Assembly (NCBI GenBank): GCA_016194635.1
Contig: JACQBC010000037.1
Location: 1 to 64,000 of the forward strand
Source of the DNA: Gammaproteobacteria bacterium
GTDB lineage: Bacteria; Pseudomonadota; Gammaproteobacteria; UBA6429; Thiohalophilaceae
Reading direction: 5' to 3'
DNA: 64,000 nucleotides
In this document: in pieces, positions 12,852 through 58,539 of the stretch
Position numbering within the stretch: the stretch's first letter is position 1
How the letters are laid out: each line of letters begins with the position of its first letter
Made by a program: the position numbers and the translations under genes
The notes under the pieces: generated by a model
What the model was told of the DNA's origin: nothing
The model's database searches: none
Seen by the model: only the letters and a program-made list of their open reading frames with translations

Positions 12852-13694
12852 ATGCGAGTACGCTTACAAATCAGTGCTCAATCATGGCTACTAGCGTTGC
12901 TGGTGCTGATCGCCCTGCCCGTGTACGCGGATTTGATCTTTACCTCGCCTCCTCGTGAAGGCGGGGGTGGTAATGACAATGCCGATGACTTTTACATTCC
13001 GTTCGCCAAATACCTCTCTAGCGTGATCGGTCAAAAGGTTGTGTACGAAAACCCGTCTAATTGGCTCAATTACCAAGCGAAAATGAAAGAGGACAAATAC
13101 GATATCATCTTCGACGGACCGCATTTTATCGCCTGGCGGATCGTCCACCTCGATAATGAAGCCATTGTGCGTATGCCCGGCCCGCTGGATTTTACCCTGT
13201 ATACCCGCAAGTCCGAGGACTCGGTGAATAAACTTGAAGACATGGTCGCGCAGAGTTTTTGCACCATCCCGCCACCCAATCTTGGTACCTTGGCGCTATT
13301 GGATAAATTTCGTAATCCGGTACGTCAACCGGTGTTGAAATCCATCGGTGGTGGTGTGCAACAGATCGTAGAAGCGTTTAAAGAAGGCAAATGCAAGGCC
13401 GCCCTGGTACGCAGCAATTACTACGCAAAAAAAATCAGTGACGAGGAGAAAAAAAACCTCAAGGTGATCTTTAAAACGGGCAATTTTCCCAACCAAGGAT
13501 TCTCCGTAAGCAAACGGGTGAGTGTCCAGGAACGTGCGCAATTAAAACAAGCGCTCACCAGTACTACGCCCGATGCCACGGTATTGGAGTTGGTTAAACG
13601 CTTTGGTAAACCCGAAGATCGTTTGATCCCTACAGATAATAAGGAGTTTGAAGGCTATAATAATTTGTTGGAAGGCGTCATCTACGGTTGGTAA
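12852..13694 (+). CDS. Periplasmic binding protein, phosphate/phosphonate (PhnD) type, orphan
   Basis: A 280-aa protein with a Sec signal (SWLLALLVLIALPVYA, cleavage near residue 27) and the PhnD-like fold (PF12974): LIFTSPPRE start, a DIIFDGPHFIAWR segment, GGGVQQIVEAFKEGKCKAAL and NQGFSVSKRV near the end. ATG 12852 is preceded by GAGGTG; the upstream in-frame ATG is less likely. No permease or ATPase gene is near, so it is probably not a transporter component here. Orphan PhnD-like proteins often act as sensors or redox-associated periplasmic proteins. It lies just upstream of, and in the same direction as, the multihaem cluster and could belong to it. Ligand unknown. Confidence 0.85.
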   Translation: MRVRLQISAQSWLLALLVLIALPVYADLIFTSPPREGGGGNDNADDFYIPFAKYLSSVIGQKVVYENPSNWLNYQAKMKEDKYDIIFDGPHFIAWRIVHLDNEAIVRMPGPLDFTLYTRKSEDSVNKLEDMVAQSFCTIPPPNLGTLALLDKFRNPVRQPVLKSIGGGVQQIVEAFKEGKCKAALVRSNYYAKKISDEEKKNLKVIFKTGNFPNQGFSVSKRVSVQERAQLKQALTSTTPDATVLELVKRFGKPEDRLIPTDNKEFEGYNNLLEGVIYGW

Positions 13695-13901
13695 AAAATA
13701 AAAAGTGATCGTTTTATCAGCAGATTTGTTTCTATTTATGCATAGACCATCGGTAATTTTCTCCAGTGTGTGCGCAAGTTCGCATTGTTACCATAAATGT
13801 CGTCTATAGTAGTGCCGACTAATATGTTTCTACATGGTTTTACCACTAACAAAGGCGCGGATTCCTGATATTCTTTAGGCAGGCCCGTTGATGTACCCAG
13901 C

Positions 13902-14834
13902 ATGACTGCACAGGCGCAACCCGTTTCAAGCAATTTGCCCGCTACTTCATCCAAAGCGGAAGCGCGTCCGCGCGCCACCATCACTCCCATTACCATCAAG
14001 AGTAACCGTTTTTGGGTGAGTGTGTTCACCATTACGGTAATTGTGGTGCTGATCGCGGGCTGGCTGTCACGCCACGATAACAATCTCAGCGGTGCCGAAG
14101 GCACGGGGTATGTATTGGGGCTGGTGGGCGGAATCGCGATGTTATCCTTACTGCTCTACCCGTTGCGCAAGCAATGGCGGCCGATGAGCCGTTTAGGGGC
14201 GGTTCGGCATTGGTTTCGGGTCCACATGATCTTAGGCGTAGTGGGTCCAGTGTTAGTATTATTTCACGCCAATTTTTCCTTCGGATCGCTCAATAGCAAT
14301 TTGGCGCTGATCTGTATGTTGCTGGTGGCCGGCAGCGGCGTGGTGGGGCGTTATATGTATATCAAGATACATCACGGTTTATACGGCCAGCGTGCCAACC
14401 TGCAAGAACTGCGACGCGATCTCAAGCTTAGCAAGGGTAAGCTGAGTGACACCTTGCATCTGTCGGGACGCAATATCGAACGCCTGAAGCGTTTGGAGAA
14501 ATACGCGCTCAAAAAGCGCAATTTGCTGATGGGTGTATTACATATGCCATTTGTAACAATTTATTGTTGGCGGATGCGCTTTACTATCGTTAACAGTGTG
14601 CGTAACGAGTTACGCAAACAAGCCGAGCAACGCGGCTGGGACAGCCAAATGTTGCATGACATCAGTCATCAGGCCTTGATGAGTTTGAGTACTTATCTTA
14701 AAATGCTACAGAGCACGGCGCATTTTCATTTTTATGAACGTTTATTCGGTTTGTGGCATGTTATCCACTTGCCGTTATTTTTCATGTTAGTGATTTCCGG
14801 TTTTGTGCATGTGTTTGCCGCACATAGTTATTAG
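13902..14834 (+). CDS. His-rich inner-membrane protein, probable di-haem b-type cytochrome
   Basis: The 310-aa protein has about five membrane helices near residues 36-52, 66-88, 100-122, 128-148 and 283-305. Two helices carry spaced histidines: HWFRVHMILGVVGPVLVLFH (third helix) and LWHVIHLPLFF...GFVHVFAAH (last helix). This spacing on opposite membrane faces is typical of bis-His b haem ligation in quinol-reactive cytochromes. A charged cytoplasmic loop (about 150-250) separates them. The stop codon TAG overlaps the region of the next gene start (TAGTGATG), so it is translationally coupled to the 21-haem cytochrome. I infer that it passes electrons between the quinone pool and the periplasmic cytochromes. 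I do not recognise a named family. Confidence 0.7.
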   Translation: MTAQAQPVSSNLPATSSKAEARPRATITPITIKSNRFWVSVFTITVIVVLIAGWLSRHDNNLSGAEGTGYVLGLVGGIAMLSLLLYPLRKQWRPMSRLGAVRHWFRVHMILGVVGPVLVLFHANFSFGSLNSNLALICMLLVAGSGVVGRYMYIKIHHGLYGQRANLQELRRDLKLSKGKLSDTLHLSGRNIERLKRLEKYALKKRNLLMGVLHMPFVTIYCWRMRFTIVNSVRNELRKQAEQRGWDSQMLHDISHQALMSLSTYLKMLQSTAHFHFYERLFGLWHVIHLPLFFMLVISGFVHVFAAHSY

Positions 14835-14836
14835 TG

Positions 14837-16432
14837 ATGTGGGAATGGACAAGTAGATACTTAAATAAATGGCTGCTGGTGAGTGGTGCCATAGGGATGT
14901 GTATGAGTTTAACCCAGGTTGTTCGCGCTGATACCTTAGAAACCTTGATCATGCCCGGGAAGGTCATCCAAGGGCATGCCAAGTTTGAAAGCGATTGTAA
15001 TCAGTGCCATACGGTGTTTAAAAAAGACGACCAAAGCGTCAAGTGCTTGGATTGCCACAAAGAAATTAACGCCGATGTAAAAAACAAACAAGGCTATCAT
15101 GGGCGTTTAAAATCGGGTCCTAACGCCGGTTGTAAAACTTGCCATACCGATCACAAAGGCCGCAACGCCGACATCATTAAATTTGATCCCCAAACGTTTA
15201 ACCATGAAATGACGGACTACCCATTAAAGCACCGCCACACCGCGGTGGCGTGTAACGGCTGTCATGTGCCCAAGAAAAAATACCGTGAGGCGCCCTCGAC
15301 GTGTGTCAGTTGTCACCGCAAGCAAAGCCCGCACGGCGAAGGCATGGGAAAACTTAGCGATAAATGCGAAAGTTGTCACTCCGAACAAGGCTGGAAGGTG
15401 GTTAACTTTGACCACGATAAAACCAAATATGTTTTAACCGGTAAACACAAAACCACCTTGTGTGTCGCCTGCCACGCCAACGAACGTTATGCCAAGACAC
15501 CGATGGACTGTTTTAGTTGCCATCGCTTGAACGACGTACACGCCGGTACCAATGGTAAAGAATGTAAGAAGTGTCATGGCACTGGTTCGTGGAAAAAAAT
15601 GACCTTTGACCATGACACCGACACGGATTTTCCCTTAACCGGCAAACATGCGGATATTTCCTGTCGCGATTGTCACAAAGAAGACGCCTTCAAGGTGAAA
15701 TTAAAAACCACCTGTATTTCCTGCCACAAGAACGATGACGTGCATAAAGGCCAAAATGGCACCAAATGCGAGTCCTGTCACGGCACCCGCGATTGGAAAA
15801 AATCCAAGTTTGATCACGACAAAACCAAATTTAAGTTACGCGGCAAACACAAAGACGCCGCCTGTGGCGCCTGTCATAAGGGCGACCCCTACAAAGTAAA
15901 AGTCAGTATTGAGTGTTATGCCTGCCACCAATTCGATGACGCGCACCATGGTCAGCAAGGCAAACAATGTCAGAATTGTCATAATGAGTTTGGCTGGCGG
16001 CAAAAAGTCCGTTTTGACCACGATGTTACCCATTTTCCCTTGATTGGATTACACGCGGTGACCCCTTGCGAGGAATGCCATTTATCCACTTCGTATAAGG
16101 ACACCGAGACTACGTGTAACGGTTGCCATGCCAAAGATGACGAACATAAGGGTAAACTTGGTATAGATTGCCAACTATGTCACAATCCTAATGGTTGGAA
16201 AATCTGGCGGTTCGACCATAATAAGCAGGCGGAATTTAAAATCGATGGGGCACATGAAAAAGTGCATTGTTACGGGTGTCACCGCGAAGCGGTGAAAGCA
16301 ATTCCCCATAGTTCACGCGACTGTATCGCCTGCCATCGGCTGGATGATATCCACAATGGGCAGTTCGGTCCGCGCTGTGAACAGTGCCACACCACAAAAT
16401 CATTCAAGGATATACAACAATTTAAACGGTGA
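14837..16432 (+). CDS. 21-haem cytochrome c built of seven trihaem units
   Basis: After a signal peptide ending near VVRA (about residue 32), the 531-aa protein contains 21 CXXCH motifs. They fall into seven consecutive sets of three with the same rhythm: CxxCH, then about 18 residues, CxxCH-x2-DD/ND-x-H-x-G, then C-x2-CH-x-GWK, and a FDHD-T-F-x-L-x-GKH linker. This is the trihaem cytochrome c7-like module polymerised seven times. It is comparable in principle to the 12-haem and 27-haem c7 polymers of Geobacter. Such chains are elongated periplasmic electron wires. ATG 14837 follows the TAG of the upstream membrane gene; GTG 14834 is an alternative. The next cytochrome gene starts 13 bases after the stop. 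Direction of electron flow and partners are inferred. Confidence 0.93.
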   Translation: MWEWTSRYLNKWLLVSGAIGMCMSLTQVVRADTLETLIMPGKVIQGHAKFESDCNQCHTVFKKDDQSVKCLDCHKEINADVKNKQGYHGRLKSGPNAGCKTCHTDHKGRNADIIKFDPQTFNHEMTDYPLKHRHTAVACNGCHVPKKKYREAPSTCVSCHRKQSPHGEGMGKLSDKCESCHSEQGWKVVNFDHDKTKYVLTGKHKTTLCVACHANERYAKTPMDCFSCHRLNDVHAGTNGKECKKCHGTGSWKKMTFDHDTDTDFPLTGKHADISCRDCHKEDAFKVKLKTTCISCHKNDDVHKGQNGTKCESCHGTRDWKKSKFDHDKTKFKLRGKHKDAACGACHKGDPYKVKVSIECYACHQFDDAHHGQQGKQCQNCHNEFGWRQKVRFDHDVTHFPLIGLHAVTPCEECHLSTSYKDTETTCNGCHAKDDEHKGKLGIDCQLCHNPNGWKIWRFDHNKQAEFKIDGAHEKVHCYGCHREAVKAIPHSSRDCIACHRLDDIHNGQFGPRCEQCHTTKSFKDIQQFKR

Positions 16433-16445
16433 GCAGGTGAATAAT

Positions 16446-18935
16446 ATGAAAACAGCTAAATCTTCGGTGAGTATAATGTCCGGTCCGCGCCAGGTGTCGG
16501 CTGCATGGCTATTGATCGGCTTGATGCTGTTAGTCGCAATGCTACTCGCTCCCTTACACGCCCATGCGGCGGCCAAGACCAAAAAATTCGACCACGATAC
16601 TACCGGCTTTATCTTAACCGGAGCCCACGTCGATTTAGTCTGCGATTCCTGCCATATCCGCGGTATCTTCAAAGGCATTCCGAAAACCTGCGACGGTTGC
16701 CATGCGCAAGTTTCGCAAATAACCGCCACCAAAAAATCCAGTAACCATATCCGCAGTTCCGACCGGTGTGACGATTGCCACGTAGACACCGCGTTCAAAC
16801 CCGCGCGGGTTGATCATTCATCCGTGATTGGTACGTGTATTAGTTGCCATGATGGACGCGTTGCGACTGGCAAGCCGGTTAACCACCCACCGGCGGGGAA
16901 TAACTGCGAATCCTGTCACCGCACCACTACCTGGGCAACCAGCGGGTTTAACCACGAAGGCATTACCAACAATTGCGGCTCGTGCCACAACGGCGTAAAC
17001 GCCAAGAGTAAAATGCCCACGGATATTGTGCACAGCAACGTCATGAACGTAACCAGTTGTGAGAACTGTCATACGAGTTTCACCACCTGGCCGCCCGCGA
17101 TATTTGATCACAGCTATATATCGGTTACAACCTGTGTTACCTGCCATAAGCCAGGTACAGTGGTGAAGACTACCCGGCCCGCCATGACCAGTTCCGGCGC
17201 TGCCCACGTCGCCCAAGATAATTGCGAGAGCTGCCACAACACCGCCAGTTGGAAACTCACCGGGGCATTTAATCACAGCGGCATTACCGGCAATTGCGTA
17301 TCCTGCCACAGCGCTTTAAAACCAGCCGATGTGGTGCATGCTAATGTCAGCAATGTCACGGTATGTGAAAACTGCCATACCAGCTTTAGTGTTTGGCCCC
17401 CCACGAGTTTTAACCATGCGTTCATAGCGTCAAATCAATGCGTGAAATGTCATACCCCGGGAGCCATGCCCAAGCATACCTCTCGCCCGGTGACCACGAG
17501 TTCTGGCGCGACACACCCGGTTGATGACAATTGCCAAAACTGCCATGTCAATACCAGCAGCTGGACAATCGGTAGCTTTGATCACAACGGCATCACCAAT
17601 AACTGTGTATCCTGCCACATGAGCAAGAAACCGACCGACACAGAGCACAGCAATTTTACCAGTCCTACCGTGTGCGAAAATTGCCATAAGAGCTTCACCA
17701 CCTGGCCGCTCACCACACTTGATCACTCGTTGAACGCGACCTCCCATTGCGTAACCTGTCATTCACCCGGGCATAAAACTGTTACCGTCAGACCTGCATT
17801 AAAGGCCAACGGGTTGCCGCATGATGTGAATGACAATTGCGAGTTATGCCATAACCCCGGCACTAGCTGGACAACCGGTGCTGGCGGTAAACCTGCGGAT
17901 CATAATACCAGGACCAGCGGATGCAGCAGTTGTCACCTCACGCTGAAAACAACTGCGCATATACCTAGCCCCGACACGTGTGAGTCATGCCACCGGCCGG
18001 ATCAAGCCGCGTGGAAGCCCTCTACATGGACGCACACCAGTGCCGTAACAAGTTCTTATACCTGCTACAAATGCCATGACGGTACGCACTCGCCGCCTGC
18101 CGATGGCATGAGTGGTAAACACATAAAACTGATCGGTACCTCCGGCTGTAATCTTTGCCACACCACGGCGGCGTGGTCACCCACCACCAAGGTTGACCAC
18201 ACGCAAGTGAGCGGCACCTGTGTGAGCTGTCATAAGCCCAACAACCCGCCGGTCAAGACCAGCAAGGCGTCGGATAGCAGCGGTCATATCGCGAGTTCCG
18301 ATAATTGTGATGCCTGCCATACGTCTACATCGACATGGACGGTACACAGGGTTAGCCACAGCGAGGTTTCCACAACCTGTACCGGCTGTCATTCGCAATC
18401 ACCCACGGGATCGACAAACCCCCATGGGCCGACCCCCGGCGTGATCCATTTCAACACCGCGGGCGCGAATTGCGGTAACAGCGGCTGCCATAACACCAGT
18501 TCCTGGACGGTAGCCACCTATACCCATTCTGCCGGTGACACCAACTGTAACGCCTGTCACGCCAGCAATTTCACGGGAATAATGACCACCAGTGCTGACC
18601 CGGGTCACCTCACCGGTATAACATTGATGCAGTGTGATTCGTGTCACCATAGTAAAAACCCGGGTGGATTTGCCCAGAAAGTGACCTACACACACAATGT
18701 AGCTCTGGCGAAAGATCACGATACCTCAGTCGCCTGCCGGACTTGCCATAAATCTTCAGTACCGCAAGTCACCTACGGCTTATATCCGGAATGCCCTGAC
18801 CACACGATGTGTGCGGCGTGTCATAAGAGCACTCCGAAGAAGTACAACCCCAACGATCCTAACTCGCATGGCGGTGTTCCAGCATGTAGCCAAGACTGCG
18901 GCCAGTGCCATGGCATAAAATCGAGAGGGTTTTAA
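16446..18935 (+). CDS. 30-haem cytochrome c with internal tetrahaem repeats
   Basis: ATG 16446 gives a signal peptide with helix AAWLLIGLMLLVAMLLAPL, cleaved near AHA, and an 829-aa protein with 29 CXXCH motifs plus one CX4CH (CGNSGCH, near residue 680). Haems 7-18 form three tandem repeats of about 100 residues, each with CENCH, CVxCH, CxxCH and C-x2-CH plus a conserved SFxxWPPxxxDH linker and a VVHxN opening. The earlier part (haems 1-6) resembles the trihaem protein upstream (KKFDHDTTGFILTGAH). Ser/Thr-rich linkers suggest an extracytoplasmic, perhaps surface-exposed, protein. No lipobox is present. The long upstream reading frame from 16344 overlaps the preceding gene and is not needed. 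Function inferred: electron transfer toward or from the outer membrane protein encoded downstream. Confidence 0.92.
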   Translation: MKTAKSSVSIMSGPRQVSAAWLLIGLMLLVAMLLAPLHAHAAAKTKKFDHDTTGFILTGAHVDLVCDSCHIRGIFKGIPKTCDGCHAQVSQITATKKSSNHIRSSDRCDDCHVDTAFKPARVDHSSVIGTCISCHDGRVATGKPVNHPPAGNNCESCHRTTTWATSGFNHEGITNNCGSCHNGVNAKSKMPTDIVHSNVMNVTSCENCHTSFTTWPPAIFDHSYISVTTCVTCHKPGTVVKTTRPAMTSSGAAHVAQDNCESCHNTASWKLTGAFNHSGITGNCVSCHSALKPADVVHANVSNVTVCENCHTSFSVWPPTSFNHAFIASNQCVKCHTPGAMPKHTSRPVTTSSGATHPVDDNCQNCHVNTSSWTIGSFDHNGITNNCVSCHMSKKPTDTEHSNFTSPTVCENCHKSFTTWPLTTLDHSLNATSHCVTCHSPGHKTVTVRPALKANGLPHDVNDNCELCHNPGTSWTTGAGGKPADHNTRTSGCSSCHLTLKTTAHIPSPDTCESCHRPDQAAWKPSTWTHTSAVTSSYTCYKCHDGTHSPPADGMSGKHIKLIGTSGCNLCHTTAAWSPTTKVDHTQVSGTCVSCHKPNNPPVKTSKASDSSGHIASSDNCDACHTSTSTWTVHRVSHSEVSTTCTGCHSQSPTGSTNPHGPTPGVIHFNTAGANCGNSGCHNTSSWTVATYTHSAGDTNCNACHASNFTGIMTTSADPGHLTGITLMQCDSCHHSKNPGGFAQKVTYTHNVALAKDHDTSVACRTCHKSSVPQVTYGLYPECPDHTMCAACHKSTPKKYNPNDPNSHGGVPACSQDCGQCHGIKSRGF

Positions 18936-18954
18936 CATCCCGTGAATCGCGGGT

Positions 18955-19527
18955 GTGGTATGGAATGACGGCGTGCTGTATAAGCTTCAGAGGTTGGGTT
19001 TGCGTGGCCGTGTTCCAGCTGCTTTGAGAGCAAGTGTTGTCCTGCTATTGATGTTCTTCTTGTCCGTGCCTGTTGTGCACGGCAAGAAGGACCATCAGAA
19101 TCTTGAAGATATACGTTCCCCACACGTGGGAAATATCGCGATCGATGATGTTGATGTGCAATGGTGGGATGACGCTGAGACGCTGTTATTAGTTGACGTA
19201 AGTTTTAATTTTCCCGTCAGTGTAACCACCGTCATCGCGGATAAAGCCACGAAGACGCATATCATCCAACTGGCAACCATCGGTACGGTTGCCAAAAGTT
19301 ACCGTAGAATGTACGCGGGTATCGAGCATCATGCGGTGCCCAAGCGATTCCGCAACATTATTGAAGAGATTCGGTATGAAGGCAGTAAATCCGGCAAGGC
19401 TAATTTAGTAATATATTTACGTCAACCCGCGCAATTATCTATCTACCAAGACAATAACTTTCGTACCTTGCACCTTGAATTGTCGGGGTTAGTCCGGCAT
19501 GAGGCTGCCACGCCCACAAAACCGTGA
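18955..19527 (+). CDS. Secreted protein with AMIN-like beta domain, part of the cytochrome cluster
   Basis: The frame encodes up to 190 residues: a basic N-terminus, a hydrophobic signal (ASVVLLLMFFLSVPVVHG, cleavage about residue 43), then a beta-rich domain ending in QLSIYQDNNFRTLHLELSG. The ending resembles AMIN-type periplasmic domains that bind cell wall or outer-membrane assemblies. The start is uncertain: GTG 18955 is the longest, and a later GTG would still keep the signal peptide. It lies 19 bp after the 30-haem gene and 48 bp before the barrel gene, in the same direction. A structural or assembly role in the conduit is an inference; I recognise no named family. Confidence 0.65.
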   Translation: MVWNDGVLYKLQRLGLRGRVPAALRASVVLLLMFFLSVPVVHGKKDHQNLEDIRSPHVGNIAIDDVDVQWWDDAETLLLVDVSFNFPVSVTTVIADKATKTHIIQLATIGTVAKSYRRMYAGIEHHAVPKRFRNIIEEIRYEGSKSGKANLVIYLRQPAQLSIYQDNNFRTLHLELSGLVRHEAATPTKP

Positions 19528-19575
19528 GCGTTTTTGTAAATCAAACATGAACTTCGACGGAAAATACCACATCCA

Positions 19576-22278
19576 ATGCGTTTTTTGACACAACTAGTCT
19601 TTGTTATATATCTAAGCGCCCTAGGGTTTTTGGCCTGGGGCGCAGAACAGATCGTTCAAAATACCGAGCAATTTATTCATGATACCCAGAGCGTTATTAA
19701 TTTAAAATTTTCCAAGCGTCTGGAATATGTGCGGTTGTACCCGGGTAACCTGTGTAAGCAATGCACCATCATGCTAAAGCTGAATTCGACTAATCCCGCG
19801 GACCTAAGCGAAATTACCCGTGATGAAACCATTAAAATCCCCGCGATCACCGGTTCATTATTACAAGACACAAAATTTCAAGGCGATCAACAGGGTAATG
19901 TTACTATTACCATGGACTTCTCAGCGATAGTGAGTATTGCGATTGAACAAGATACGAATCGATTTAATTTAAAAATCACAACTTCGCCTTATGAAAGACC
20001 ACAAGATGCCGTGGCCGAGAAAAACGCAACTGAATCCGGCACACCAAAACAAGATATCCCTGATCGGATTTATGTCATCAATCTGGAGTCCTCCATCCAG
20101 CCATTAACGCTGAAAAAACTTGATGCTTATCCAGAATTAAAAGACTATAAAAATTATCTCACGCGGATCGAATTCAAAAATCAGAAATGGTACCGGCATC
20201 GTTTGGGGTTTGCGGCCTCCGAGGTGGAGGCGGCGGATTTACTCGTTAAGGTGCAAGCTATATTTCCATCGGCCTGGATTGATACTGCGTCCCCGTCGGA
20301 AGTCGCTATTGCAAGAAAATATTACGCCTTGTATCCCGATAAATTATTACAAGCGAAAAAAACCACCACGGCCGTGGCAAAAACCGAGCAACAACAAGCC
20401 ACAACACCGGCCACCCAACCACCAACCGCGACTGCCGCACCAGAAATTAAATGGAAAGCGGGTGGCGAAGTTGCTACCAGCGCCGCGGTTCCTACTCCAC
20501 AAACAGGAACAGCCACGGCGGGCGCGAACGCGGCGCCTGATACCACGACGGCGACCGCAAAGAAAAAGTCCGGCGCCGAAGTGACCACTCTTCCTCCCGA
20601 GGTTACGGGAGGGAGTGACGAAAAGGCGCGTTCTCTAATGGAGCGCGCCCGTCAGGCCATGATTGACGGTAACTATCCCATCGCCATAGGCATTTACACC
20701 AAAATGCTTGATACTGGGAATTTGCAAGAACGCAAAGATGCGCGCGAATATCTAGGATTGGCACGTGAGCGCAATGGTCAAATTGCTCAGGCACAAGCCA
20801 ACTACGAAGAATATATTCGAGACTATCCCAATGGCCCCGATGGCGACCGTCTACGCCAGCGCTTGGTGGGTTTGTCGACCGCTAAATCCTCGCCACAGAA
20901 GGAACTTGTGAAGACTGAAACCAAGAAAGTGGAAGCGGTCTGGGATATTTCAAATTCATTTTCCCAGTATTATCGTAATCAAAATACCAGGTTGGATATC
21001 CCGCCAGCAACCCCAAATGCGCAAGGCACTACCCAAGCGTTTACCGCGGATAAATCCTTGTCTACGGATTTTTCCTCGAACGGACGTTATCGCGGGGAGC
21101 GCTATGATATGCGTTATCAAATAAATGCTAATGATTATTATAGTTTTTTAAATACTTCGACGAGTAAATACGATTTTCGTTTAAATAGCGCCTATCTCGA
21201 TACGTCGGATAGATTAACCAATATGACTTACCGTGTTGGCCGACAGACACAAAGCTCCTACGGAATCTTGGGCCGGTTTGACGGCTTATTTTATAGTTAT
21301 CGGTTTGATCCAAAATACAAAGTAAATTTCATCTACGGTAATCCAGTGGATTTTCAAGTAACCAAGAAAATCAATCACGCCAAGAAGGTGACAGGGCTTA
21401 GCCTGGATATGGGGACGTTCGCGGAACATTGGGATATGAATGTTTATGCAGTCCAACAAACCGCCGATAATATTCTTGATCGCAAGGCAGTGGGAACCGA
21501 GATGAAATATTTAAGTCAGGATTTTACCGCCTTCTCGATCCTTGATTACGATGTGAACTTTAAGCAATTAAATACCGCCTTATTTTTCAGTAGTTGGCGC
21601 TTTAAAGACAACACATCGGTTAACCTAAACCTGGACTATCGAAAATCGCCCATGGTCATGATGACCAGTGGATTAAGCGGTGTAACAGGCGCAACCACCT
21701 TAAGCCAATTGTTGCAATTGTACCCCGAGTCAACCGTGCGCCAACTCGTCGCAGACCGCACCTCGCAACAACGCAATCTTTCTGCTTCGATCAACATGCC
21801 CTTAAGTACCAACTATCAACTGGGCGCGGATTTTTCATATAGTTATACCGGGAAAACTGCCGACTCGACTTATGTGAATCCGGTGATTTCCGGCACACCA
21901 AGCACAGGTAACCAATACTCCTATGGCGCGCAGCTTATTGGCAACAATGTTATATTTAACAACGATATCGCGAACTATGGGCTGCGTTATACCGATGCAC
22001 CGCACAATGCGTCATGGACGATGAATTTTAGCGATCGCATATCGGTAAATTCCGATTGGCGCCTGAATCCAAAATTCACTCTAAACCATCAGAACGCTAC
22101 CGACGGCAGCAGTAGGATAATTTACAAACCATCGTTTAAGGTTGAATACAAAGCAGACAAGAACATGCGTCTTGATGGTGAAATTGGGATAGAGCGTGGT
22201 ATTACCAAAGGAGGAACAAATGATGGCGCCGTAGAGAATAATCATTATATTTATTTTGGGTATGTATACGATTTTTAG
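19576..22278 (+). CDS. Outer-membrane beta-barrel protein with AMIN-like, SPOR-like and TPR segments
   Basis: The 900-aa protein has a signal peptide (MRFLTQLVFVIYLSALGFLA, cleavage after WGA), an AMIN-like domain (about 30-135) and a SPOR-like domain (about 165-235; RIYVINLESS, RHRLGFAASEVEAADLL). A Thr/Ala/Pro-rich linker (260-340), TPR-type helices (345-425; GNYPIAIGIYTKML) and a C-terminal region of alternating aromatic strands (450-900) follow. The last residues, IYFGYVYDF, end in Phe as expected for a BAM-inserted beta-barrel. In porin-cytochrome complexes such as MtrB or OmbB, a barrel sheathes a cytochrome c through the outer membrane. Here the barrel follows two giant cytochromes, which makes a similar role plausible. 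The SPOR domain would anchor it to peptidoglycan. Not a recognised MtrB homologue by eye. Confidence 0.8.
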   Translation: MRFLTQLVFVIYLSALGFLAWGAEQIVQNTEQFIHDTQSVINLKFSKRLEYVRLYPGNLCKQCTIMLKLNSTNPADLSEITRDETIKIPAITGSLLQDTKFQGDQQGNVTITMDFSAIVSIAIEQDTNRFNLKITTSPYERPQDAVAEKNATESGTPKQDIPDRIYVINLESSIQPLTLKKLDAYPELKDYKNYLTRIEFKNQKWYRHRLGFAASEVEAADLLVKVQAIFPSAWIDTASPSEVAIARKYYALYPDKLLQAKKTTTAVAKTEQQQATTPATQPPTATAAPEIKWKAGGEVATSAAVPTPQTGTATAGANAAPDTTTATAKKKSGAEVTTLPPEVTGGSDEKARSLMERARQAMIDGNYPIAIGIYTKMLDTGNLQERKDAREYLGLARERNGQIAQAQANYEEYIRDYPNGPDGDRLRQRLVGLSTAKSSPQKELVKTETKKVEAVWDISNSFSQYYRNQNTRLDIPPATPNAQGTTQAFTADKSLSTDFSSNGRYRGERYDMRYQINANDYYSFLNTSTSKYDFRLNSAYLDTSDRLTNMTYRVGRQTQSSYGILGRFDGLFYSYRFDPKYKVNFIYGNPVDFQVTKKINHAKKVTGLSLDMGTFAEHWDMNVYAVQQTADNILDRKAVGTEMKYLSQDFTAFSILDYDVNFKQLNTALFFSSWRFKDNTSVNLNLDYRKSPMVMMTSGLSGVTGATTLSQLLQLYPESTVRQLVADRTSQQRNLSASINMPLSTNYQLGADFSYSYTGKTADSTYVNPVISGTPSTGNQYSYGAQLIGNNVIFNNDIANYGLRYTDAPHNASWTMNFSDRISVNSDWRLNPKFTLNHQNATDGSSRIIYKPSFKVEYKADKNMRLDGEIGIERGITKGGTNDGAVENNHYIYFGYVYDF

Positions 22279-23540: not shown

Positions 23541-25547
23541 TCAATACAAATTAAAAAACCCGCGTTTTTTATTCGCTTCTTCCAGTTGTTGGGCAATGGT
23601 CGTATACCCCGCCGCCAGCGCTAAGGCTTGCGCGGTTTGTTTGTCTTTATTGCGCAGGCTAACATCGGCGCCGTGTTCCAGTAGCAGGTTGACGATCGGT
23701 GTGTAGCCATGACGCGCGGCCAGCATCAGGGCGCTGTTGCCGTACTGGTTCTTGGTGTCGACATCGGCTTTGTGCTGTAACAGTAGTTTTACAGTATCCG
23801 TATAACCTCCTTCGGCGGCGAGTAACAACGCGGTATTGCCGGTGAGGGTTTTGGTATCTACTTTCACTTTGCGGGTCAGCAGGGTATTCACCAGATCGCT
23901 GAGGCCGACGCTGGCGCTGAGGTGTAATAAATTATTGCCTTGTTTATCGGTATCGTTCAAATTGATGCTGGCGTCGAATAAACGTAGTGCGGTGCCGGTG
24001 CGCTTAAACACCACCGCCAACATCACCGCGGTTTGGCCCTGTGCGTCCTTGGTTTGGGGCGATGCCTTGTGGCGCAACAATTCCACCACTGCGCCTTCCT
24101 TGCCTTCACGCGCGGCGATCATTAATGCATCAAGACCTTCTTTGTCGCGCGCGCCGAGGTTTGCGCCTTTAGAAATCAAGTCATTGATTAGTTTTGGATT
24201 GCCACCTTGTGCCGCCCACATTAACGTGGTGCGTTGGTCTTTAGAAATAACGTTGGTATCCGCCCCCTTGGCCAATAATTTTTCTACACAGGGGATACAA
24301 CCGCTGCGCACCGCCCACATCAGCGCGGTGACATTGTCCGCGTTCTTGAAGTTGACATTGGCCCCGGATTGCAGCAGCTGTTCAACCACTTTGTCGTGCA
24401 ACAGCTGCGCGGCCTTGCTCAAGGGCGTAAAACCTTCGGAGTCGGTGGTGTTAACGTCAACCCCTTGTTGCAGCAATACCTTGATCACCTCGGGTTGATC
24501 GCGTACCACCGCTTCCATCAATAACGAAAAACGTTTCTCCGGCGTGGTGCCTTGGGCGTCGACAGCCTTGGTAATGTCTTCTTTGGTCAGTTGATTTTTC
24601 GCGCTCTTGTCGGTCGAAGGCGGCGGCAGTTTGGCACCGGCGGCTTTTAATAACGCCAGCACCTGGGTTTGTTTACCCGCCAGGGCGTGCATATAGGCGG
24701 TACGGTCTTTTTTATCCGTAAGATTGACCTGCGCGTGGTGTTGCAACAGCGTCGTCACGATGGCTTGATTACCATTGGCGGCGGCTTCCATCAAGGCCGT
24801 GCGGCCGAGGCTATCGGGGGCGTCGATCTGCACCGGCTTAGTCAGGAGTAAGTTAACCAGCGTCAAGCTGTTCTGACGGGCGGCGAGAATTAAGGCGGTG
24901 TCGTTTTGTTTGTCTTGCAGCGTGGTATCCGCGCCCTTGCTGATCAACAACTGCGCGGTTTTCTCTTCTTTGGCGTCCACGGCTTCCAGCAACGGCGTGC
25001 GACCGTTTTCATCGGCGTAATTGATATTGGCGCCGTCTTTGAGCAGCATGGTGACGCGATCCAGGTCGCCGCGGCGCGCTGCGGTCAGTAATACAGGGTT
25101 GGCTTGTTTGTGTGAAATATTTTCAATCGCGATGTCTTGGTTTTTACCCACCGACGCCAAGGCGAGCTTGGCCTGGCTGTGTCCCTGGTTCGCGGCCATG
25201 CCTAGCCATTTTTTGGCAAGGTCGGGGTTCTCGGGTACCCCCTGGCCTTTCATAAAAGCCATGCCCAGGCTGTATTCGGCCTTATCGTAGCCTTTATCGC
25301 AGGCCTGGCGGATCAGGGCCAGGGCTTTTTTTTCATCCTGAGGCACGCCCTGTCCATTGCGATACAGGGTGGCCAGTTCATACATGGCCTTGGGGTCGCC
25401 TTTATCCGCTAAACTTGTAAGGATTTTCGCCGCGCGGGTGAAGTTTTTTTCCCGCACCGCCAACTGGGCGTCGTACATCGCGTCGGCGTGCGCCCACAGC
25501 GGAACCAGCAAGGCCAAAACAACTACTACGGGAAGGACGGGTTTCAT
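23541..25547 (-). CDS. Exported Sel1/ankyrin-repeat protein
   Basis: The 668-aa protein has a clear Sec signal (VLPVVVVLALLVPLWAHA, cleavage near residue 22). Three Sel1-like repeats follow (about 25-140; YELATLYRNGQGVPQDEKKA, AEYSLGMAFMKGQGVPEN). The rest is about fourteen ankyrin repeats with the usual G-x-TPLxxA, LLxxGAxVN signatures from about 150 to the end. It is therefore a periplasmic or surface protein-protein interaction scaffold. Its ATG overlaps the TGA of the Fe-S flavoprotein gene upstream by the sequence ATGA, indicating translational coupling and a shared function. One possibility is docking the redox enzyme to periplasmic partners such as the multihaem cytochromes; this is inference. 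Confidence 0.88.
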   Translation of the reverse strand: MKPVLPVVVVLALLVPLWAHADAMYDAQLAVREKNFTRAAKILTSLADKGDPKAMYELATLYRNGQGVPQDEKKALALIRQACDKGYDKAEYSLGMAFMKGQGVPENPDLAKKWLGMAANQGHSQAKLALASVGKNQDIAIENISHKQANPVLLTAARRGDLDRVTMLLKDGANINYADENGRTPLLEAVDAKEEKTAQLLISKGADTTLQDKQNDTALILAARQNSLTLVNLLLTKPVQIDAPDSLGRTALMEAAANGNQAIVTTLLQHHAQVNLTDKKDRTAYMHALAGKQTQVLALLKAAGAKLPPPSTDKSAKNQLTKEDITKAVDAQGTTPEKRFSLLMEAVVRDQPEVIKVLLQQGVDVNTTDSEGFTPLSKAAQLLHDKVVEQLLQSGANVNFKNADNVTALMWAVRSGCIPCVEKLLAKGADTNVISKDQRTTLMWAAQGGNPKLINDLISKGANLGARDKEGLDALMIAAREGKEGAVVELLRHKASPQTKDAQGQTAVMLAVVFKRTGTALRLFDASINLNDTDKQGNNLLHLSASVGLSDLVNTLLTRKVKVDTKTLTGNTALLLAAEGGYTDTVKLLLQHKADVDTKNQYGNSALMLAARHGYTPIVNLLLEHGADVSLRNKDKQTAQALALAAGYTTIAQQLEEANKKRGFFNLY

Positions 25548-26848
25548 GCAGTGCCGTATTTTGTATCGACTTGAATACCGATTTGCTTCAGGAAAGGGGT
25601 CGGCAGTATACCGCCGGCGCAGACGATGACACCATCATTTTTCAGCTCCAAGGGTTTGCCCAGATGCTCCAAGCTGACTTTGTCGGGTGAAATATGTTTA
25701 ACCGTCGAGGATAACAACACCTTAATCCGCCCGGATTTTTCCGCGCTGGCCAGTTTAACGCGATTTTTTTCTTTAACCCGGGAAAAGGCCTCGCTGCGGT
25801 AGGACAGGGCAACGGTGGTATTTTTTTCCTCGGCGATCGAGATCGCCGCTTCCAGGGCGCTATCGCCCCCGCCTACCACCAACACATGTTTGTCGCGAAA
25901 CTGCTCGGGATCCAGCAGGCTATACACCACCTTGGGGAGTTCCTCGCCGGGGACGCCGAGTTTACGCGGTGTGCCGCGTCGGCCGATGGTCAACAACACC
26001 GCACGTGTACGGTATTTTGACTTGGTGGTGGTGACAATAAAATGATCGCCATCGGGGGTGATATTATCCATTTTTTCCCGGTAATTGATCTTCACCTTGG
26101 TTTTTTCTTCGATCGAGTGCCACATCTGTAGCAGGGCCTCTTTCGAGGTTTCGCGCAACTGCACCTTGCCCACCAGCGCCAATTTCACCGGCGCGGTCAT
26201 GACGATTTTACCGCGCGGGTATTGGAATACCGCGCCGCCCAAGGATTCCTGTTCAACGGTGACATAGTTCAGTTTCTTTTCCATGGCGCTGAGACTGGCG
26301 GAAAATCCCGCCGGGCCCGCGCCGATGATCATCACGTCCAAATCCTTGTTTTTACCAATACCGCTGAGTTTAGAAATGGCGTCGATGGCTTGTTTACCCT
26401 GTTCGGCCGCGTTGCGGATCAGCCCCATCCCGCCCAGTTCCCCGGCAATGAAAATACCCGGAATATTGGTTTCAAACGTCTCGCTTACCAGGGGAATATC
26501 CACTCCCCGGGTGGCGGTGCCAAATACCAGGCTAATGGCGTTAAACGGGCAGGCCACCCGGCAAGCGCCATGGCCAATACAATAAGTAGGATTGATCAAT
26601 TCCGCCCGGCCGTGGATCAGCCCCAGCACATCCCCCTCCGGGCAGGCGCTCACGCAGGCGCCGCAGCCCACGCACATGTGCGAATTAATCAGCGGGTGTA
26701 ACGACGCCGGATCAGCCATCCCAGCCTTGACGTTTTTATGCAGAATTTTTTTGTTGTGTTTATGGGTACGCTGGCGAAAATAATAGACCAGCCCAATCAT
26801 CATAAAGGGCAGTGCGTATACCAACCAGCTGAAGTAGTCACCCGTCAT
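25544..26848 (-). CDS. Membrane-anchored ferredoxin-type NAD(P)H flavoprotein oxidoreductase
   Basis: A 434-aa protein with one N-terminal helix (YFSWLVYALPFMMIGLVYYF), then two Fe-S motifs. The first is a normal CVGCGACVSACP (about residue 59). The second is CIGHGACRVACP, where the second ligand Cys is replaced by His. After that comes a thioredoxin-reductase-like fold: FAD motif VMIIGAGPAGFSASLSAM near 172 and NAD(P) motif VLVVGGGDSALEAAI near 322. The segment PGIFIAGELGGMGLIRNAAEQGKQA, which normally closes a thioredoxin-reductase FAD domain, lies ahead of the FAD motif, like a permutation. No CxxC disulfide centre is seen. It would shuttle electrons between NAD(P)H, FAD and Fe-S clusters at the inner membrane. 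It is co-translated with the ankyrin gene; its place next to the cytochrome cluster suggests an electron donor or acceptor role. Confidence 0.8.
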   Translation of the reverse strand: MTGDYFSWLVYALPFMMIGLVYYFRQRTHKHNKKILHKNVKAGMADPASLHPLINSHMCVGCGACVSACPEGDVLGLIHGRAELINPTYCIGHGACRVACPFNAISLVFGTATRGVDIPLVSETFETNIPGIFIAGELGGMGLIRNAAEQGKQAIDAISKLSGIGKNKDLDVMIIGAGPAGFSASLSAMEKKLNYVTVEQESLGGAVFQYPRGKIVMTAPVKLALVGKVQLRETSKEALLQMWHSIEEKTKVKINYREKMDNITPDGDHFIVTTTKSKYRTRAVLLTIGRRGTPRKLGVPGEELPKVVYSLLDPEQFRDKHVLVVGGGDSALEAAISIAEEKNTTVALSYRSEAFSRVKEKNRVKLASAEKSGRIKVLLSSTVKHISPDKVSLEHLGKPLELKNDGVIVCAGGILPTPFLKQIGIQVDTKYGTA

Positions 26849-29061: not shown

Positions 29062-32000
29062 TTAAAGCAAAAGTGAAACTTGACAATACCAAAATTGGCC
29101 CGGTTGGAATAGCGGGTTGCGTGGCTCACCAGTAAATTCAAGATTGTAGTATTTAAAATACCGATTGAAAATATTTTTGCCACCGACTGTTATTATGCCG
29201 GTACGTCGGGGTAAGCGGTAGGAAAAAGAAAAATCGGCAAGCCAAAAATTATCGTTTTGAATGTTATTCAATATGTTTAGTGTTTGGTTGACATAACTGA
29301 CAACAAATTTCGATGAAATATTATTTGAATAATGCGCTGTCAGTCCAAAAGGTACACGATAAGTAACTAACGCATCGGGAACAGGAGTTTGACCAGTAAA
29401 TTTTTCATAGAAGTAGTCAGAGGTAAATACATAGTTGTTGTTTATTGTCCAGTATAGATATGCATGCTGATTTAATTCATCTCGATCGTTATATGCGACC
29501 GTATTTGTTGTTGTGATGAGAGTAGGAACTCTAAGTGAACGTAGTGAAGACTCAATACCCGCATGCGCTTGTGGAGTGAAACTATGCTCGAAGGCAATAC
29601 CGCTGAGTGTTGCTTCGGTAGCATCTACATCATCAAAAAACTGGTTAAAGCCCGCGACCTGAGTGGGTTCAAGTGTTTGGTTGGTGAAAAGCGGGCGTTT
29701 CAGTGTCTTTAATGTAGCCATACGCAAAAGAGTATCTTCCGAAAACCAATACATTAAGCCAAATTTTGGACTAAGTTGTGATTTATGCTGAGCAATCTGT
29801 TTAAAATTATCATAAGCGAGCCCGGTATTTATTAAAAACTGTTGCGAGACTTGATAAGTTATGTATGTATAAGCGTTACTGTGTTCAGTATCTAAGTTGA
29901 GAGTAGCCTGATCATAATATACAACAACAGGTGGTGAAGGGGGTAACGCAGTAGCTTGAGTCGTGGTTGTATCAGTACGTTTAGTGTCGATATAACCTGC
30001 GCCAGATATCAATTTGAACTTATTTGGGTGGTATAAATACTGTAATTCACTTGTTTTTGATTTACTATCAATGTTGCTAAATACCTCACCCAGTGCATCA
30101 AGGCCGACACCTAGGGCATCTCGTACAATTGCATAATGATATTTATTTTCATTGTCACTGCTTTTAATGTAAGAAAAAATAATGTCATGCGTGGGTGCGG
30201 GCGTATAATGCATTCCAATGCGATCATTATCTGCATCAATATTATTTCGTAGGGTACTGTCGTAAATGTTGGGATCGAACTGCAAAAGTAAATCACCGGA
30301 TTGTGTGTTTCTGGTGTGATGTTCTGCTTGAATGCTTAATGATGTGTCAATATCATTTTGAACAAAGAAATCCTGAATATTATGATGTATATCATTGTTT
30401 ACCCGAAAACCGTCCGTTGCATAGTGGTACTCACCAAAACTATACGAAGTAGAATTCTGGACGCCGGATATAATCAGATCATTACCTTTAGTGTTATTAC
30501 CACCATAAATACCATTAATTTGTAATCCTACCCTGTTACTAGTAAACAGGGAATTAAATTCATTTGATGAAGAATAAACCGAACCAACATTTTCAACGGT
30601 GCTTAAACCTTTTTCTGTTAATTGTGGCTGAATTGAATTAGCATTAACTGGTTGTAGCAATTGTGTCTGCAATAATTCACTGATCCTAGCAATCTCATGT
30701 CGCTGTACGTTTGCATAGCTATCTGCCAAGAAACGATGGGCTGAATAATTACTCGGGTCCATGGCTACCGATTTATAACTTTCTAATAGGGCCAGTTGAT
30801 TATAGCCTAACTCTGAATAGACACGTGCCAAGCTCGCACTGCGCGCCGCCTCGTCCTGATCCAACTGCAACCGCGACCGGTACACTGCGCGGTTGTCATT
30901 GAGTTTGATCGATTGCTGCAAATCCTCCAACGCCTCCACCGGCCGGTTCTCGGTTTGTTTGCGGATCGCGTCGTAGAACCACGCGGTCGGGTCGTTGGGG
31001 TCCAGTTCCTTGGCCATGGCGAATTGATCGGCGTCCAACGGTGCGCGTTTTTCCTCGAAATAGGCTTTGCCCAGGTAACTGCGGATCAAGGCGTTGTTGG
31101 GGTCGAGCATCGTGGCGATCTCGATCTCGCGGCGGCCTTCGGCGAGATTGTTTTCGCGGATCTTGGCCAGGCCCAAACCAAGGTGGGGTAAGGGATCGGC
31201 TTGATCTAACACAATAGCCTGGTCGAAGGCGTGTTTGGCGGCGTTGATATGAATCTGGGTGAGGTAGGCGAAGCCCAGGATGGTTTGCGCGCGCGCTTGT
31301 TTGTTGTCGAGTTGGGTGGCGTGTTGTGCCGAAGTCAGGGCGTGGCTGAGATAGCCCACCGACAATTGCAGTTCGGCCAACCGCGCGAAGGCCAGGGCAT
31401 TGTGGGGTTCAACCGTGGTGGCCTGTTGGGCGCTGGCCAGGGCGGCTTCCAAATCAAAGCGCGCTTGCTGGGCATAGGACAGGGCTATGTGGGTGGCAGC
31501 GCTGTTGGGGGTTAAAGCTACAGCTTCGTTGGCCAGGGCCAGAGCCGCATTGTTGTCATTGTTGACCACCGCGATGATCGCCTCAAGCGCCTTGGCCTTG
31601 CCCTTATCCGCGTTGGCGGGCAGTTGCGCCAACGCAGTGCGCGCTTCGTTCACCCGGCCGCGATACAACAGATCGGCAATCGGGGCCAGCGGATCATCGG
31701 CGGACAACAGCGGCGGATAATACAGTGCCCATTGCACCGCATCGCGCGGTTTGGCCACTAGAATTTTCAGCGGTGCCTCGCCGTTTTTCGCTAAGGCGGT
31801 TTCATTGTGGGTCACGCGGACTTCGCCCGCACTGTTTTGGGCCAATACCTTGCCTTCAAATACGATGACGCGGGCATCGGATGGCGTGACTGCGACAACA
31901 AATTCTGTGCCTTCGATCGCGGCGTTGACGAACGGTGTATTGATGTTAAGGCTATGCGGTACACGGCTGATAAAATGCACCCAGCCGGTCAGTACCTCCA

Positions 32001-32313
32001 GCAAGGAGGGACTATCGGCTTTAACCGCGGTGAGCGTCAGGGCGGAATTTTGATCCAAGCGCAGCAGGGTTTGATTGGCCAGCACCACCGCGGCGCGGCC
32101 GTGTTCACCCACGCGCAGGCTGTCACCGCTGCAATAAAGATCATTGAGGTTCACCGCCAGCCACTGTTCGGTCGCGGCGCGTCTGGCTTGGACCGGGCCT
32201 TGGATCGAAACAACCTTGGCCGACCAGGGCTCACAACCGGCGCTCACCTGCGCATGCAGCGAGATGGCCCACCCCAGCAACGCGAGCGTTGCCCATGTGG
32301 TTTTGTTGCCCAT
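29062..32313 (-). CDS. FecR-TPR outer-membrane beta-barrel protein
   Basis: ATG 32313 (GGAGGGG nine bases upstream) gives 1083 aa with a signal peptide ending near VSA. Then come a FecR-like domain (about 35-190; WLAVNLNDLYCSGDSLRVG, NTPFVNAAIEGTEFVV), roughly ten TPR repeats (215-560; NNALAFARLAELQLSVGYL-type), and a long C-terminal barrel (600-1083). The barrel is rich in aromatic strands and has a TonB-receptor-like ending (TVGGKNIFNRYF, FWYCQVSLLL). Base composition is more AT-rich in the barrel half than in the TPR half. FecR domains here are not the sigma-factor type but the periplasmic ligand-binding variant often found beside CHASE2 cyclases. That is the case here: the cyclase gene is immediately upstream. 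Function unknown; a surface receptor or secretion pore is possible. Confidence 0.78.
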   Translation of the reverse strand: MGNKTTWATLALLGWAISLHAQVSAGCEPWSAKVVSIQGPVQARRAATEQWLAVNLNDLYCSGDSLRVGEHGRAAVVLANQTLLRLDQNSALTLTAVKADSPSLLEVLTGWVHFISRVPHSLNINTPFVNAAIEGTEFVVAVTPSDARVIVFEGKVLAQNSAGEVRVTHNETALAKNGEAPLKILVAKPRDAVQWALYYPPLLSADDPLAPIADLLYRGRVNEARTALAQLPANADKGKAKALEAIIAVVNNDNNAALALANEAVALTPNSAATHIALSYAQQARFDLEAALASAQQATTVEPHNALAFARLAELQLSVGYLSHALTSAQHATQLDNKQARAQTILGFAYLTQIHINAAKHAFDQAIVLDQADPLPHLGLGLAKIRENNLAEGRREIEIATMLDPNNALIRSYLGKAYFEEKRAPLDADQFAMAKELDPNDPTAWFYDAIRKQTENRPVEALEDLQQSIKLNDNRAVYRSRLQLDQDEAARSASLARVYSELGYNQLALLESYKSVAMDPSNYSAHRFLADSYANVQRHEIARISELLQTQLLQPVNANSIQPQLTEKGLSTVENVGSVYSSSNEFNSLFTSNRVGLQINGIYGGNNTKGNDLIISGVQNSTSYSFGEYHYATDGFRVNNDIHHNIQDFFVQNDIDTSLSIQAEHHTRNTQSGDLLLQFDPNIYDSTLRNNIDADNDRIGMHYTPAPTHDIIFSYIKSSDNENKYHYAIVRDALGVGLDALGEVFSNIDSKSKTSELQYLYHPNKFKLISGAGYIDTKRTDTTTTQATALPPSPPVVVYYDQATLNLDTEHSNAYTYITYQVSQQFLINTGLAYDNFKQIAQHKSQLSPKFGLMYWFSEDTLLRMATLKTLKRPLFTNQTLEPTQVAGFNQFFDDVDATEATLSGIAFEHSFTPQAHAGIESSLRSLRVPTLITTTNTVAYNDRDELNQHAYLYWTINNNYVFTSDYFYEKFTGQTPVPDALVTYRVPFGLTAHYSNNISSKFVVSYVNQTLNILNNIQNDNFWLADFSFSYRLPRRTGIITVGGKNIFNRYFKYYNLEFTGEPRNPLFQPGQFWYCQVSLLL

Positions 32314-32489
32314 TCCGTCGAACCCCTCCATTATTCTAAAGATTTTTTAAAGTCGCTGATCGATGTAATGATAGCGCTAATGTGCCTCGGAAGTGAATAG
32401 TTTGTAGCGTGGTGGTGATTATAGCCAAGTCCTGTGCGAAAAATACTGGTAATTTTACCCAGCGAGGCAGGGAATAAATCACCGTGTAG

Positions 32490-34745: not shown

Positions 34746-35292
34746 TACCAACTATAATCCTCAGTTTTCCCTCTCCCACGCGAGAGGGTTGGGAACATGA
34801 ATTTATTCCCCGCATCTTCTAATTTTTTACCCTCGGGGGATACGCATCCTTTTAAGAGGGCAGGGGTTAAACCCGGCAGTGCCGGTGTTATACCCCGTAA
34901 AGTAGTGAGGTTAGTTCGACATACACGCTGCCGTTCTACCGCGGCGGGGGTTAGCGCTGGCCACGCCTAGTCGTACCTGCTTGTACACCAAGTTCATGTT
35001 ACAACCGGATGATTGTATATGATCACAAATATCCAAATGTCTATGCACCCTCTTGGAACATTTATTTCTACACTTAAGTTTCTATACTTTAGGAATAATT
35101 ACCTTTGAATCACCGCGCGTGGCTATTATTCTGCCGAAATCTTCATATAATAGGTAGAGTTAGTGTTGACGGCCCCCCACGTCACGCGTACTGAAGAGAA
35201 TCTGTGCCCGTGTTATTTGCTCAGCCGCGGATGTTAGATGACGGTGATCCGCCATCGTGGGTAATGCCAGTAATAACAACCAGAGGCGAGCC
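34746..35292. other. Divergent promoter region, cyclase/Crp
   Basis: 547 bases without a gene. It contains a hairpin CCCTCTC/GAGAGGG (34769-34775 with 34782-34788), a type of small inverted repeat common in proteobacterial intergenic DNA, and an AT-rich stretch at 35030-35100. I see no clear operator for Crp itself. Confidence 0.4.
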
Positions 35293-45057: not shown

Positions 45058-45113
45058 AATTTAAACCTCAAATCTAATGATTTTCTGTTTTCCTTGAGGA
45101 GCAGCAACCCTGT

Positions 45114-45851: not shown

Positions 45852-45863
45852 TACCTTTGTTTT

Positions 45864-45887
45864 CCCCCTCCGCCCTAGGCGCGGGGG
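45864..45887. other. Imperfect GC-rich hairpin between soeA and soeB
   Basis: CCCCC/GGGGG (45864-45868 with 45883-45887) and CGCC/GGCG (45871-45874 with 45878-45881) form a stem in the soeA-soeB space. A short palindrome, TCACCC-T-GGGTGA, follows at 45905-45917. It may tune relative expression or be a degenerate intergenic repeat. Confidence 0.35.
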
Positions 45888-45929
45888 TTATATTATGTTC
45901 AGTATCACCCTGGGTGAGGGGAGTTAACC

Positions 45930-51308: not shown

Positions 51309-51311
51309 GAC

Positions 51312-53525: not shown

Positions 53526-53546
53526 CAGGATTTGTGGAGAATAGCG

Positions 53547-54167: not shown

Positions 54168-54179
54168 GGAGATATTGTC

Positions 54180-55079: not shown

Positions 55080-55104
55080 CCGCAATTACTGCGAAGCGTT
55101 ACAC

Positions 55105-55132
55105 AAAAGCCCTTCGCGCGAGGGCTTTTTTT
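55105..55132 (+). terminator. Rho-independent terminator of the qmo-hdr operon
   Basis: AAAAGCCCT (55105-55113) pairs with AGGGCTTTT (55121-55129) across a 7-nt loop and is followed by TTT. It lies 26 bases past the hdrB stop. Confidence 0.92.
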
Positions 55133-55218
55133 ATGCATGGATTGTTGAAATATTGTACATCTTAACCAATAAAGTACGCTATATTGGCGCATCGAACCAC
55201 TTTATTTTGGGAGGAAAA

Positions 55219-57445: not shown

Positions 57446-57499
57446 TTTCGCGGCAAAATGAGTAAAGGTACCGGTTGCTAGCTCGGTTTTGAGCGCGGG

Positions 57500-58414: not shown

Positions 58415-58488
58415 GTATCACCTCGCTCAACGGTGCGCATATTTTAGTCATACGCGATCCGGTTGGGTATCTCTCTTTTGGGGCTAAA

Positions 58489-58515
58489 AATGAGAACGGG
58501 GCCGAAGCCCCGTTC
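58489..58515 (-). terminator. Terminator between aprA and the YkgJ-like gene
   Basis: GAACGGGGC (58494-58502) pairs perfectly with GCCCCGTTC (58507-58515) over a CGAA loop. On the minus strand it is followed by TCATTTTTAG. It probably ends or attenuates the sat-aprBA transcript. Confidence 0.8.
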
Positions 58516-58539
58516 CTGTTTACTTATGACCGACCGCAA

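Follow-up and report, generated by a model that had tools for sequence, protein, structure and literature searches.

Gene content of the locus

The window analysed here (the whole stretch of DNA, 64,000 nucleotides in length) carries six plus-strand open reading frames that an earlier note had described as a single electron-conduit cluster, and all six were found where that note had placed them. The boundaries of the unit nevertheless need to be changed, as two conserved minus-strand partners (23541-26848) fell outside its interval. The features are listed below, where PCC3 refers to the conduit class named by He et al. in 2017 and TM denotes transmembrane.

12852..13694, plus strand: PhnD-like periplasmic binding protein (PF12974), phosphonate-type; outside the conserved unit
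13902..14834, plus strand: CYB, PCC3 inner-membrane protein with five predicted TM helices and two WX3HX13H motifs (motifs, loop charges, AlphaFold2)
14834..16432, plus strand: MHC1, 21-haem c-type cytochrome of seven three-haem units (Cytochrome_C7 repeats)
16446..18935, plus strand: MHC2, cytochrome with 29 CXXCH and 1 CX4CH motifs; predicted to be extracellular or at the outer membrane
18955..19527, plus strand: AMIN-like secreted protein, a sporadic accessory (homology and distribution)
19576..22278, plus strand: BAR, PCC3 porin with an N-terminal beta domain, a weak SPOR match, TPRs and a barrel of ~22 strands (AlphaFold2 pLDDT 83.6)
19654..19989, plus strand: BAR residues 27-138, N-terminal beta (AMIN-like) domain (secondary structure of the model)
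20071..20286, plus strand: BAR residues 166-237, SPOR-like domain (SPOR E 0.07; DamX SPOR E 5e-4 with a family profile; model)
20617..20883, plus strand: BAR residues 348-436, TPR region (TPR match below the gathering score; model)
20938..22275, plus strand: BAR residues 455-900, transmembrane beta-barrel (AlphaFold2 model; porin-like fold matches)
23541..25547, minus strand: ANK, exported Sel1/ankyrin-repeat protein, a frequent PCC3 partner (4-bp overlap with FAD)
25544..26848, minus strand: FAD, membrane-anchored pyridine-nucleotide/FAD oxidoreductase, a core PCC3 partner (domains, alignment, co-occurrence)

The order CYB, MHC1, MHC2, BAR is constant and widely conserved in relatives. The gene spacing of 2-48 bp that the earlier note gave for its core excludes the binding protein, which lies 208 bp upstream, is conserved in the same genus only and was rejected as part of the unit on the basis of this distribution. 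Nor is the AMIN-like gene a regular member, its distribution being sporadic. In the window, the FAD-then-ANK operon (26848-23541) and BAR are convergent; elsewhere the operon is found divergent, convergent or co-directional relative to the PCC3 genes. The conserved unit is CYB-MHC1-MHC2-BAR plus this operon.

The inner-membrane protein CYB

The five-helix protein with paired histidines in two helices was confirmed by a motif scan, which places the two WX3HX13H motifs at W104-H108-H122 and W285-H289-H303 and an SGXXG motif at 145. Five TM helices are predicted (AlphaFold2 pLDDT 86) and the motifs are invariant in 44 of 44 homologs. CYB is predicted from these motifs to bind two haems b, with H108 and H289 as ligands on the cytoplasmic side and H122 and H303 on the periplasmic side. 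A positively charged insert of ~125 amino acids separates TM4 from TM5 and, by the positive-inside rule, is predicted to be cytoplasmic, which makes it a plausible docking site for FAD.

Searches of solved structures by sequence returned only chance matches to CYB, Foldseek gave no significant match to its model and no relative was found in the viral contigs searched. The top fold-match rows, TorS and McpS, were rejected as relatives: both are long bundles of helices, and their rmsd exceeds 6. The moderate match to 8qt6, the NOX of Streptococcus pneumoniae (Z 9.4, rmsd 3.0, 115 residues), is within the chance range of helical bundles; it agrees with the ferric-reductase likeness noted by He et al. 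for the PCC3 inner-membrane protein (PMC5566968), an agreement that is weak on its own. The ferric reductase Pfam family was absent among the CYB matches at E 0.1.

The multihaem cytochromes

Counting confirmed 21 CXXCH motifs in MHC1, as the earlier note had it, and 29 in MHC2, in which the thirtieth motif is CX4CH; the total of 51 haems claimed for the pair therefore comprises 50 canonical motifs and one that is non-canonical. Residue shuffles of the two proteins contain about 0.3-0.4 such motifs, with a maximum of 3. Intact MHC1 proteins encoded next to CYB have 21 haems (n=48, plus that of L057 after correction of its start), 18 (9), 24 (3) or 27 (4), and are multiples of three throughout, except for one open reading frame near a contig end (L059, 13); the 22 haems initially counted for L057 reflected a mis-set start. 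The haem number of MHC2 is very variable in relatives, for example 9 to 43, reaching 67 in the wider locus set. Because MHC1 counts step by three while those of MHC2 vary freely, the data fit a putative periplasm-spanning rod of three-haem units in MHC1 and an outer cytochrome that is free to change in MHC2. The periplasm-spanning wire is not a new idea, having been proposed for PCC3 in a survey of the Gallionellaceae (PMC10734462).

The porin BAR and the AMIN-like protein

The SPOR/TPR/beta-barrel architecture of BAR was borne out, with a weak SPOR match and a TPR match below the gathering score. In the AlphaFold2 model, a disordered linker joins the SPOR-like domain to the TPRs, and about 22 strands over residues 455-899 form a predicted outer-membrane beta-barrel, most of which has pLDDT >90, ending in a C-terminal Phe. 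The fold matches are porins; MtrB is missing from those listed, which says nothing on whether the folds differ. No MtrB or PioB Pfam match was obtained for BAR at E 0.1. The SPOR-like domain may bind peptidoglycan. Neither outcome that the earlier note had named as refuting its proposal was obtained, the barrel being predicted at the outer membrane and the gene order being kept in many relatives.

The AMIN-like protein has no Pfam or NCBIfam match and shows homology to the N-terminal domain found in some PCC3 porins, of which it is an occasional detached copy. A few loci have its gene by itself at this position.

The cluster is a member of PCC3

PCC3 was defined as a porin, an extracellular and a periplasmic multihaem cytochrome (the latter with a median of 21 haems) and an inner-membrane protein of ~300 amino acids with five TM helices, two WX3HX13H motifs and SGXXG on TM4 (PMC5566968). 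The second cytochrome has a large and variable haem number (10-85), and the Gallionellaceae survey gives 21, 24 or 27 haems for the periplasmic and 10-35 for the outer cytochrome (PMC10734462). MHC1 fits the periplasmic cytochrome in its 21 motifs and in the 18, 21, 24 or 27 of its homologs, MHC2 fits the variable outer cytochrome, CYB fits the inner-membrane protein in helix number and in motifs, and BAR supplies the outer-membrane porin that PCC3 requires. Bradyrhizobium sp. STM 3843, a PCC3-positive strain of He et al. (PMC5566968), is locus L106 of our homolog scan and carries the same genes. Because the parts match the definition and STM 3843 shares them, we assign the window cluster to PCC3; every published PCC3 feature that we tested was found. 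The proposal of an "unrelated or very divergent" conduit is therefore unsupported, the same parts having been named in 2017 (PMC5566968). As a functional guess, an inner-membrane b-type cytochrome with periplasmic and outer cytochromes and a porin, corresponding to neither MtrCAB nor PioAB, is still the best reading of the parts, and a porin-cytochrome conduit with predicted electron transfer across the outer membrane is well supported. The likeness to published PCC3 lies in the shared gene set, the 21-haem periplasmic cytochrome and the variable outer haem number. PCC3 as published, however, comprises four genes and a quinone model, whereas here the unit adds FAD and usually ANK, and the window porin carries SPOR/TPR modules.

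A flavoprotein co-inherited with CYB

FAD consists of one N-terminal TM helix, two ferredoxin Fe-S motifs and a pyridine-nucleotide/FAD domain, the nearest relative of which is the bacillithiol disulfide reductase YpdA (closest solved structure 7a7b, E 4e-41 with a family profile). Unlike FAD, YpdA has neither the TM helix nor the two ferredoxin motifs. YpdA GGGPCG, in which Cys14 acts as an active-site residue (PMC6591457), is GAGPAG in FAD, replacing the catalytic Cys with Ala, and the alignment of the FAD family contains no conserved dithiol; with both features missing, the sequences suggest that FAD carries out electron transfer rather than disulfide reduction. The cluster types are uncertain, since the second Fe-S motif has an invariant His at the position of one Cys, and one Cys of the first is lost in some members. 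ANK, found at 47 of 74 CYB loci in named genomes, is predicted to be periplasmic.

Among 58 relatives, the genomes with MHC1 and those with strong CYB matches are the same 19. Of these, 18 also have FAD, which none of the other 39 has, and the sole PCC3 genome without it is 83% complete. FAD scores are bimodal, at 647-766 bits (329 for one fragment) followed by 153 and 151, and the two low matches are on contigs of weak CYB-like genes. Across 323 genomes of the class, CYB occurs in 35, FAD in 35 and both in 34 (hypergeometric p 1e-43, a value that ignores shared ancestry); the single genomes with CYB or FAD alone, G208 and G123, are fragmented assemblies. An apparent separation of the two genes in G113 is due to a contig break through one cluster. 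Three genomes (G071, G124 and G301) have two CYB and two FAD each, and one set of paralogues groups together for CYB and for FAD alike. The pairwise distances of CYB and FAD correlate at r 0.60, where permutations reach at most 0.23, with species relatedness ignored. In named genomes, FAD lies within the fetched DNA at 62 of 74 CYB loci, and at 51 of the 57 with at least 4 kb available upstream. Co-inheritance of FAD and CYB is near-perfect, which marks a functional link rather than direct electron transfer.

In term searches of the main texts of the PCC3 papers covered, supplements of which may hold an earlier mention, neither a flavoprotein nor an ankyrin protein was tied to PCC3. What appears to be new here is FAD, and usually ANK, as part of the conserved PCC3 unit; the conduit class itself has been known since 2017.

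Relation to other redox systems

In our analysis, electron flow between FAD and CYB is best supported by the repeated association of CYB-like proteins with NAD(P)H modules of different kinds. Distant CYB-like proteins, each with two HX13H pairs, adjoin an FNR/2Fe-2S protein at locus L029 and an FAD/cNMP/Fe-S redox protein at the PCC4-like locus L030; at L031, the CYB-like domain forms a fusion with an NAD(P)H/FAD/[2Fe-2S] reductase (a rubredoxin-reductase/BFD protein) and adjoins a 10-haem cytochrome. The inner-membrane protein of PCC4 (He et al. 2017) has the same motifs as that of PCC3 and is weakly similar to CYB (37 bits), but PCC4 differs in having 10-haem and smaller cytochromes and another flavoprotein architecture.

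The TM domain of NADPH oxidases and ferric reductases is similar in its two HX13H pairs for two haems b, placed in two TM helices, and in its NAD(P)H/FAD partner. Here, by contrast, the flavin domain is separate and of the thioredoxin-reductase/YpdA type with Fe-S motifs, not of the FNR type, and electrons would pass to c haems instead of O2. The porin-cytochrome logic is common to MtrCAB, MtoAB and PioAB, which use 10 haems as opposed to 21 and 30; the window cytochromes, at 19.5 and 82.2 bits, stay well short of the 192.2 that the DmsE decahaem model sets as its cut-off, and no CymA-type quinol dehydrogenase was seen in the window cluster.

Proposed electron path and its direction

We propose that the PCC3 conduit and its overlooked FAD module constitute a split NADPH-oxidase-like exporter that moves electrons from NAD(P)H to the outside of the cell across the whole envelope, a reading to which we assign a probability of about 0.5. 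In the path that we infer, from the NAD(P)H link and the haem b ligands to the subcellular locations and the outward direction, FAD, anchored on the cytoplasmic face, would exchange electrons between NAD(P)H (or ferredoxin) and its own Fe-S clusters, which would reduce both haems b in CYB. Through CYB the electrons would cross the inner membrane and reach the 21-haem MHC1, which would span the periplasm and hand them, through or at the barrel, to MHC2 and from there to something outside the cell. We favour outward flow on two grounds: NAD(P)H donates at low potential, and electrons leaving the cell move with the membrane potential. Reducing NAD(P)+ directly with electrons from Fe(II) would run uphill in both respects. 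More tentatively, this continuous path of flavin, Fe-S, haem b and haem c may bypass the quinone pool altogether, in which case the role in iron oxidation discussed in the literature would have the direction wrong.

In the model of He et al., the CYB-type protein exchanges electrons with quinones (PMC5566968). CYB would then supply the quinone pool with electrons taken up from Fe(II) or some other external donor, leaving FAD as a side enzyme or regulator. The two-haem b motifs of CYB and the FeOB distribution described with that model (PMC5566968) are in keeping with it, as is the presence of PCC3 in many iron-oxidising Gallionellaceae (PMC10734462), but PCC3 is also widespread in lineages for which iron oxidation is not known, and the near-exceptionless retention of FAD with CYB is left unexplained. 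PCC3 transcripts, moreover, fall on Fe(II) in Sideroxydans ES-1, a response that speaks against this model and is compatible with outward flow. We consider this quinone-reducing role less likely than the exporter, although quinone exchange by CYB as such conflicts with none of our results.

The same co-inheritance would also be expected if outward flow drew on two donors, quinol at CYB and NAD(P)H by way of FAD, and FAD merged or gated the flow. A flavin with two ferredoxin motifs resembles multi-donor enzyme modules in general terms only, and neither a second flavin nor a quinone site was identified, making this version improbable. Least probable of all is a haem store or capacitor in the periplasm, with a barrel that serves only to export MHC2 or has some other function. 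This reading draws on the predicted status of the MHC1 and MHC2 localisation and on the periplasmic SPOR/TPR modules of BAR; against it, the barrel, the haem wire of near-fixed length and the variable outer cytochrome fit a conduit.

Some haem counts of PCC3 are among the largest known, and the system has been regarded as a candidate iron oxidase. Its regular companion, a conserved flavoprotein of the NAD(P)H type, offers a handle on both electron source and direction of flow. If linked to NAD(P)H, PCC3 would amount to an extracellular redox valve that works independently of quinones, distributed across Alpha-, Beta- and Gammaproteobacteria.

Elsewhere, the window encodes aprBA, sat and Qmo/HdrA-like proteins, such that a sulfur-oxidising host, as suggested in the earlier note, is plausible.

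Haem-attachment genes and haem-rich cytochromes at PCC3 loci

At eight loci of the porin–cytochrome conduit class PCC3, ccmF or ccmI/cycH-like genes lie between FAD, the pyridine-nucleotide/FAD oxidoreductase partner, and CYB, the five-helix inner-membrane protein, an arrangement that suggests dedicated haem attachment for some loci of the class. The ccmF of L062 and the ccmI-like genes of L087, L099, L107 and L112 were assigned by family test, and the ccm-type genes of L063, L093 and L095 were called from the sequence start.

Additional cytochrome genes were found upstream of PCC3 in two genomes:

L022, 11772–17902: 18-haem cytochrome and 1130–1234-aa protein
L023, 314–6814: 18-haem cytochrome and 1130–1234-aa protein

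The 1130–1234-aa proteins carry 11–12 CXXCH motifs, and that of L022 combines PKD domains with numerous matches to cbb3-type cytochrome c domains. The outer cytochrome of L105, a PCC3 locus in a Candidatus Thiodiazotropha symbiont MAG, contains 67 CXXCH motifs. At L115 (genome G069), CYB is adjoined by cytochromes of 21, 23 and 69 haems, and an in-frame stop divides the FAD gene.

Ferredoxin motifs of FAD

In the window FAD (25544–26848, minus strand), the second ferredoxin motif reads C-x2-H-x2-C-x3-C (CIGHGxC), its histidine being conserved across 26 aligned homologues. The first motif lacks one cysteine in several members, some of them betaproteobacterial.

Neighbouring genes in the window

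Downstream of the PCC3 cluster lie the following:

29062–34751: protein with TPR repeats (1089 aa) and guanylate cyclase with a CHASE2 domain (753 aa)

Sulfur oxidation genes are also present:

44080–62369: SoeABC-like molybdopterin/Fe-S/NrfD-like complex, Qmo/HdrA-like genes, aprA, aprB and sat
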